In this document: positions 819-1,297 of the stretch, piece after piece
How the letters are laid out: each line of letters begins with the position of its first letter
How positions within the stretch are numbered: position 1 is the stretch's first letter
From: Chitinophagales bacterium 62-2
Lineage (GTDB): Bacteria; Bacteroidota; Bacteroidia; Chitinophagales; Chitinophagaceae
Length of the DNA stretch: 36,042 nucleotides
Assembly: GCA_002050375.1 (NCBI GenBank)
Contig: MWYU01000735.1
Coordinates: 1-36,042, forward strand
Direction of reading: 5' to 3'
Notes under the pieces: generated by a model
What the model was told of the DNA's origin: nothing
The model's database searches: none
The model's input: only the letters and a program-made list of their open reading frames with translations
Translations under genes and position numbers: made by a program

Positions 819-847
819 TTTGCTGTTAATCTCAATAATTACATTTG
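819..847 (+). promoter_or_regulatory. Bacteroidota-type promoter of dut
   Basis: TTTG at 819-822 and TACATTTG at 840-847 match the -33 (TTG/TTTG) and -7 (TAnnTTTG) elements of the Bacteroidota housekeeping promoter. The 17-base spacer fits the reported TTG-N17-23-TAnnTTTG arrangement. Transcription would start only a few bases past 847, practically at the GTG start codon at 854. Confidence 0.6.
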
Positions 848-853
848 CCTTAA

Positions 854-1297
854 GTGGATAAACAAACAATTAACATAATCAATCTTTCCAATAATCCGTT
901 ACCGGCCTATGCTACCGAAGGTTCTTCAGGCATGGATTTGAGGGCGTATATTGAAAGTGCAATTATGCTTCAGCCTTTAGAACGGAGGTTAATACCGACA
1001 GGTTTGTTTATTGAACTTCCGGACGGATTTGAAGCCCAGGTGCGACCACGAAGCGGATTGGCAATAAAGCAAGGCATAACATGCCTCAACAGCCCCGGCA
1101 CCGTGGATGCTGATTACCGTGGAGAGTTAAAAGTCGTGTTGATCAACCTTTCCAACGAACCACAGGTGTTGCATCCCGGCGACAGAATTGCGCAAATGGT
1201 AATTCAAAAAGTTGAAAAGGTAACATTGGTACAGGTACATGAAATAAGTTCAACAACAAGGGGTGAAGGTGGGTTCGGACATTCAGGAAAACATTGA
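854..1297 (+). CDS. dut: deoxyuridine 5'-triphosphate nucleotidohydrolase (dUTPase)
   Basis: Dut hydrolyses dUTP to dUMP and pyrophosphate, keeping uracil out of DNA and feeding dTMP synthesis. All five trimeric dUTPase motifs are visible in order: SGMDLRA (about 25-31), [21 protein letters not shown] with the catalytic Asp and Tyr, GDRIAQMVI, and the C-terminal [10 protein letters not shown] arm that closes over the substrate. The start is GTG, immediately preceded by an in-frame TAA, so it is the first possible start. The next ATG lies inside motif 1 and would destroy the fold. The 147-residue length is typical. The promoter -7 box ends six bases before this codon, which points to a leaderless transcript. 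Confidence 0.96.

Follow-up and report, generated by a model that had tools for sequence, protein, structure and literature searches.

The dut gene of the window, that is, the whole stretch of 36,042 nucleotides that was analysed, very probably has a sigma-A promoter of its own and is transcribed as a near-leaderless mRNA initiated at GUG. This is the best reading of the locus, as the original prediction of a leaderless, GTG-initiated dut mRNA had proposed, and it is favoured by the finding that 72 of 129 dut loci from the family Chitinophagaceae have a -7 element 3 to 6 nt before their start codon. The sequence comparisons strongly support dut, which encodes the DNA-protecting enzyme dUTPase, as a conserved near-leaderless gene and as a new member of a known phenomenon.

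The dut locus and its start codon

The features of the locus that are needed below are as follows.

313-789, + strand: ispF (2-C-methyl-D-erythritol 2,4-cyclodiphosphate synthase; TIGR00151, 207.6 bits), the upstream neighbour of dut
791-811, + strand: TTTAACATTCCGCTGTATAAC, an element behind the ispF stop, from the genus alignment
819-822, + strand: TTTG, the "-33 element" of the original prediction, with a 17-base spacer to TACATTTG
840-847, + strand: TACATTTG, candidate Bacteroidota sigma-A -7 element (TAHHTTTG), from its match to the consensus (PMC6847099) and its conservation
852-853, + strand: predicted transcription start, from the spacing of 4-5 nt after the box in F. johnsoniae
854-1297, + strand: dut (dUTP diphosphatase; NF001862), 147 codons, GTG start at 854-856
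932-934, + strand: first in-frame ATG in dut (codon 27), within SGMDLR, which we take to be dUTPase motif 1
1385-2218, + strand: LolB1-type lipoprotein insertase gene, downstream of dut (NF053559, 134.6 bits)

The genes are arranged in the order ispF, dut, the LolB1-type gene and an EnvC/M23-like gene, and 64 nt separate the end of ispF from the start of dut on the same strand. In profile searches the Dut protein matched NF001862/TIGR00576 with 204.4 bits (cut-off 103) and PF00692 with 102.4 bits, as expected of a member of the homotrimeric dUTPase family. TACATTTG is followed by CCTTAA (848-853) and then by GTG (854-856), so that the six bases originally counted between the end of the promoter and the GTG were read correctly. 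Because an in-frame TAA (851-853) lies immediately 5' of this GTG and the next ATG, at 932, lies in motif 1, which a start at that position would cut, GTG 854 is, judging from the reading frame, the sole usable standard start of dut, as had been argued originally. The N-terminus of the protein also aligns with those of the Dut proteins of relatives, which is consistent with the GTG at the predicted 5' end being the true start.

In F. johnsoniae, the -7 element spans T-12 to G-5, and the start of many RNAs lies 4 or 5 nt downstream of it (PMC6847099, which is represented here, like the other papers cited, by excerpts). With this spacing, the sigma-A promoter of dut would have its -7 box (840-847) placed directly against the reading frame, and transcription would start at about 852 or 853, leaving a leader of AA or A and an mRNA of the form (A)A-GUG. 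This predicted leader of 1-2 nt falls within the 5' UTR of 0-3 bases that was first proposed, and the promoter is thus positioned for a near-leaderless dut mRNA. Translation would then begin at the 5'-proximal GUG without a ribosome-binding site, probably by the 70S ribosome, in analogy with E. coli, or by a 30S subunit loaded with initiator tRNA. An extra share of ispF-dut read-through mRNA is possible and would add a leadered form. The search for mRNA structure around the 5' end of dut gave no signal (z 0.29), the Rfam search gave no matches, and the sigma-70 and terminator scans contributed nothing.

The original prediction spoke of a full promoter. Its downstream half stands, since TACATTTG is conserved, as described below. 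TTTG and the 17-base spacer are literally present, but TTTG at 819 has no counterpart in the other genus sequences aligned, and only 9 of the 72 strict dut sites have a TTG at a distance of 14-25 nt upstream of the box. On these grounds, TTTG (819-822) is probably incidental rather than a part of the promoter. In F. johnsoniae also, the -33 motif is much less evident (PMC6847099). Separately, the TTTAACATTCCGCTGTATAAC element adjoins the ispF stop codon upstream of the dut promoter and is largely preserved in several members of the genus; it may be an activator site, a processing site or something else.

Conservation of the box in dut loci of the family

The motif TAHHTTTG alone is an ordinary 8-mer, with 27 occurrences in the window against 35.8 expected. 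The window by itself therefore proves little, and for this reason relatives were compared. The dut gene is present in 279 of 294 family genomes, and we analysed the dut loci of 130 of these 279, namely those ranked highest by similarity to the Dut of the window, so that the sample leans to near relatives. The dut starts were chosen blind to the promoter, solely from the number of codons that separate them from the PLPxYAT motif. One locus in which no start could be picked (L249) was dropped, leaving 129 loci; in another (L005) an upstream TTG was picked as the start, and this locus was scored as not strict in the counts and set to boxed in the tree.

When k denotes the number of bases between the end of the box and the start codon, strict TAHHTTTG boxes were found at k = 3, 4, 5 and 6 in 4, 26, 38 and 4 loci, respectively, which gives the 72 strict loci. 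Only one other strict match, at k = 37, was found within k = 0-59 among the 129 loci. At k = 4-7, 68 loci had a strict box, against a mean of 0.6 and a maximum of 9 for 29 permuted motifs. When up to one mismatch was allowed at k = 2-8, 97 of the 129 loci were boxed. At least one strict case was present in 34 of 57 genera, and at least one case with up to one mismatch in 49. Three extra family genomes from the class search (G004, G034 and G155) all had the strict box, and all of 30 more distant family genomes searched have dut. At the strict sites, the preferred bases are T at -13 (0.71) and C at -4 (0.83). Since the box keeps a distance of 3-6 nt in most of the family dut loci compared, its position at the start codon is, by these comparisons, more than chance. 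The alignment of the region upstream of dut in related Chitinophagaceae, which had been named originally as a way of checking the prediction, thus favours the near-leaderless reading. Against this reading, 32 of the 129 loci have no box near the start even at one mismatch; the boxless loci include all examined members of genera g84 (five), g48 and g19, and four of five of g11.

The distance from the start to PLP is 13, 14 or 16 codons in the strict set, so that the N-terminus of Dut varies by up to three codons, and the start codon also varies; k nevertheless stays at 3-6 throughout. The ispF gene lies directly upstream of dut in 86 of the 129 family loci. It does so in 61 of the 72 strict loci, with gaps of 11 to 391 nt; in the other strict loci, ispF was absent from the stretch covered (eight loci), elsewhere on the same strand (two) or on the other strand (one). 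Because the gap to ispF varies while k stays at 3-6, the preserved feature is the distance from the box to the start, not that to ispF.

These results bear on the alternative that the sole dut mRNA is a bicistronic one shared with ispF, with leadered or coupled initiation at the GTG, TACATTTG being fortuitous. The position of ispF, 64 nt upstream on the same strand in the window and directly upstream in most family loci, agrees with such an arrangement, as do the boxless loci: 15 of the 32 lie directly behind ispF, and seven are within 10 nt of the ispF stop codon or overlap it, as expected for co-transcription, which is likely in some relatives. Against this alternative, the box is preserved at 3-6 nt in 72 of the 129 loci, with 68 loci at k = 4-7 versus no more than 9 for the permuted motifs, and it is also present in eight loci without ispF in the stretch covered. 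We therefore regard exclusive bicistronic expression as improbable for the window.

A second alternative accepts the promoter and supposes that the dut mRNA is mainly leadered, the leaderless form being minor or condition-specific; the leadered form would come from ispF or from an unrecognised start that uses another sigma factor or the 791-811 element. The presence of the latter element is compatible with this view, as are the strict boxes that lie 14-62 nt upstream of dut, in a leadered layout, in several loci titled Bacteroidales. In 128 of the 129 family loci, however, there is no strict sigma-A box elsewhere at k = 0-59, and we consider a mainly leadered dut mRNA slightly less probable still than the bicistronic arrangement.

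Promoter or translation signal

To distinguish a promoter from a translation signal, the gaps between neighbouring genes are informative. In the family loci, strict boxes at k = 3-7 were found for 38 of 490 divergent genes, for 30 of 330 genes with a same-strand gap of 40-100 nt and for 19 of 365 with larger gaps, against only 3 of 222 with a gap below 15 nt and 2 of 139 with a gap of 15-40 nt; about nine dut ORFs escaped the filter in these counts, and the use of the boxed ATG, where there was one, as the reference point for the gap may favour larger gaps slightly. Boxes at leadered distances (k = 13-60) were found for 2 of 222 genes in the tightest gap class and for 10 of 139 at 15-40 nt. 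Operon-internal genes depend on a signal for translation but for the most part not on a promoter of their own; since the box avoids these genes, it behaves as a promoter.

The least probable alternative is that TAHHTTTG-N4-6-start is a Kozak-like translation signal, a role that would suit an element within 15 nt of the start in Bacteroidota, which lack Shine-Dalgarno sequences and for which Kozak-like contexts have been reported (PMC6847099), but the element fits the promoter consensus, including the lack of G at -10/-9 (PMC6847099), and its depletion in tightly spaced same-strand genes (3/222 and 2/139 versus 38/490 and 30/330) led us to reject it as a ribosome-binding context. By its match and its conservation, TACATTTG is the putative -7 element of a Bacteroidota sigma-A promoter.

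GTG starts in the genus of the window and beyond

The genus of the window was represented by 10 genomes with 11 dut loci, and in 9 of the 11 loci a strict box lies 5-6 nt before the start. Seven of these boxed loci start with GTG: those of G000 (the genome of the window), G098, G582, G583, G584 and G585, and the copy of G267 on contig C3, so that GTG stands behind the box in 7 of the 10 genomes. The other two start with ATG (G223) and with TTG (G172), the latter being locus L005, which was read by eye and has the box 6 nt before the TTG. The loci without a box are that of G586 and the second dut copy of G267. The two copies in G267 (L287 and L288) differ in their settings: one is behind ispF with the box and GTG, and the other is located elsewhere, starts with ATG and is boxless.

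A GTG start was found in 17 of 135 dut loci, from 8 genera. Every one of these 17 loci has a box at k = 4-6 (9 strict and 8 with a single deviating base), and without exception their next in-frame ATG falls in motif 1. Repeated independent gain of GTG was considered and not retained: a weak tree gave 10 ATG/GTG changes, but only one independent pair was on supported branches. Outside dut, GTG at the leaderless position was not above chance, with 0 versus 2.1 in the family neighbourhoods and 1 versus 0.6 in the genome of the window, counts in which the dut filter was incomplete. The original description of leaderless mRNAs with GTG starts as uncommon thus holds for GTG, and less so for leaderlessness in Chitinophagaceae.

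Leaderless-position boxes beyond dut

To examine other genes, we used a family set of 785,653 bases from the genome of the window and three arbitrarily chosen family genomes, from which the dut ORFs detectable by blastp had been removed. Strict boxes at k = 3-7 numbered 19 in the 599 ORFs of this set, where permuted motifs gave 3.3 on average and at most 8; in the 561 ORFs of Bacteroidales-titled contigs they numbered 7, where permuted motifs gave 2.2 on average and at most 5. The excess at k = 3-7 was 2.6 per 100 ORFs in the family set and 0.8 in the Bacteroidales-titled contigs, and the share of the excess (k = 3-7 over k = 3-60) was 0.44 and 0.04, respectively. The two sets differed by Fisher's test on raw counts (p = 2.2e-5; p = 7.6e-6 with the incomplete dut filter). 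The method is supported by the Bacteroidales share, which is in line with the proportion of 5' UTRs below 10 nt in B. thetaiotaomicron, roughly 3.7% (PMC7366714). The share of 0.44 was rejected as an estimate of the fraction of leaderless mRNAs, which it overstates, since the family set has few strict leadered boxes: these were barely above the control (49 versus a permuted mean of 29.4 and a maximum of 50).

At ORF starts only, the genome of the window had 9 boxes in 313 ORFs against a permuted mean of 2.0 (maximum 7; dut filter incomplete). The raw count of TAHHTTTG-N5-ATG in this genome, 47 hits against 62 for the pattern read backwards, speaks against a simple reading of the pattern, and boxes with one mismatch fell within the permuted range and were too noisy (dut filter incomplete). 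The neighbourhoods of 80 dut loci had 73 boxes in 1,030 ORFs against 4.4 (maximum 14), a number swollen by recurring orthologues. The boxed genes in the genome of the window include mutS, gatC, mtaB, a gene for a PcrA-like helicase and one for an MsbA-like transporter, the pcrA and msbA matches being below the NCBIfam cut-offs; in relatives, they include murF, pheS and porU. A near-leaderless box was found in 34 of 46 members of the MurF cluster (for example, L184:3959-5224) and in 12 of 33 members of the PorU cluster; the clusters still contained a few named contigs that duplicate family genomes. The gene murF is thus a second conserved leaderless candidate beside dut, as far as the position of the box indicates. 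As a side observation, two candidates in the genome of the window (L275 and L277) concern DNA maintenance, namely MutS and the PcrA/UvrD-like helicase.

Ten genomes, of which eight were single contigs, represented nine further families of the class and had 13 boxes in 312 ORFs against 1.0; 7 of the 13 come from G373. Their share of 0.30, driven by G373, G579 and G349, did not differ from that of the family set (Fisher p = 0.84), and a restriction of the trait to Chitinophagaceae was ruled out by these genomes with a similar share. On the counts obtained, leaderless-position boxes are patchy in the class. In G373, a member of family f44 (L291 and L292), 7 strict boxes at k = 3-7 were observed in 34 ORFs over 40 kb (dut filter incomplete), and two of the boxed proteins presumably correspond to GatB and RbfA, which their N-termini resemble. 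Family f44 may be another leaderless-rich family of Bacteroidia.

Among 80 named dut loci, some of which duplicate family genomes, 13 had a strict box at k = 2-8 and 8 had one with one mismatch; none of the 13 strict loci was Bacteroidales-titled, and none came from the genera that we take to be Flavobacteriales. Of 14 loci that were treated separately as Chitinophagaceae, two of them under the bare title 'Bacteroidetes bacterium', 10 were strict; two further Chitinophagaceae-titled loci had a box with one mismatch (L108) and a strict box at k = 7 (L116). Niastella soli (L072) and Chitinophaga sp. SYP-B3965 (L085) are among the named organisms with a strict box at dut. In the class search, 5 of 30 dut loci were strict, namely the locus of the window, those of three more genomes from its family and, at k = 2, one from a different family (L174).

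The wider reading of these results is that leaderlessness is a regular route of expression for housekeeping genes (dut, murF, mutS, the pcrA-like helicase gene, gatC, pheS and porU) in Chitinophagaceae, and patchily in a few other families of Bacteroidia, at a level well above the 4-6% known from measurements in Bacteroides and F. psychrophilum, and that the ribosomes accept a 5'-end GUG, at least on dut. To us, the chances for and against this reading appear evenly balanced. If it is true, the leaderless route is one of the ways of initiating translation in a phylum that lacks Shine-Dalgarno sequences and in which mapped leaderless mRNAs have so far been a small minority. The larger question that it raises concerns Chitinophagaceae as a leaderless-rich lineage of Bacteroidota. 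Confirmation of the excess across the family would mean that a model for leaderless promoters belongs in the annotation of gene starts in Chitinophagaceae. The dut gene itself, near-leaderless across many genera and with GTG in several, would be a concrete conserved test case for the choice of start codon.

Comparison with known systems

A near-leaderless layout is thought to be rare in Bacteroidota. About 3.7% of 5' UTRs are below 10 nt in B. thetaiotaomicron (PMC7366714) and 5.5% of mRNAs are leaderless in F. psychrophilum (PMC9723704), and in F. johnsoniae leaders are 10 nt or less in 13% and longer in 87% (PMC6847099). The low shares measured in B. thetaiotaomicron and F. psychrophilum count against a near-leaderless dut. 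The mapped leaderless mRNAs and dut have the sigma-A -7 element in common, but the mapped cases come from other families, and in the excerpts of these three papers a family-wide leaderless gene, dut or a GTG start is not discussed. Of the 37 Bacteroidetes/Chlorobi genomes surveyed by Zheng et al. (PMC3160421), one had leaderless genes, by an approach with which only Pribnow-like promoters were detectable. The FCB group is characterised by non-canonical AT-rich ribosome-binding sites (PMC9581028) and Chitinophagia are almost without Shine-Dalgarno sequences (PMC10783764). The general idea is not new, because of the work of Nakagawa et al., as far as its excerpt goes; searches of the open-licence literature brought up no work that deals with leaderless transcription in Chitinophagaceae or with a leaderless dut.

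In mycobacteria, ATG and GTG both work at the 5' end, with GTG below 10% in E. coli (PMC4633059), and GUG works in several actinomycetes (reviewed in PMC9031893). Mycobacteria belong to a different phylum and have a different promoter from that of dut in the window, and in contrast to them GTG leaderless starts here do not exceed chance in genes other than dut. Mycobacteria also make poor use of TTG at the 5' end (PMC4633059), whereas in G172 the box lies 6 nt before a TTG. The leaderless mRNAs of E. coli are the basis for expecting 70S-type initiation on dut (PMC9031893). In E. coli, a 5'-end GUG is far less efficient than AUG (PMC9031893), whereas in the genus of the window GTG stands behind the box in most genomes.
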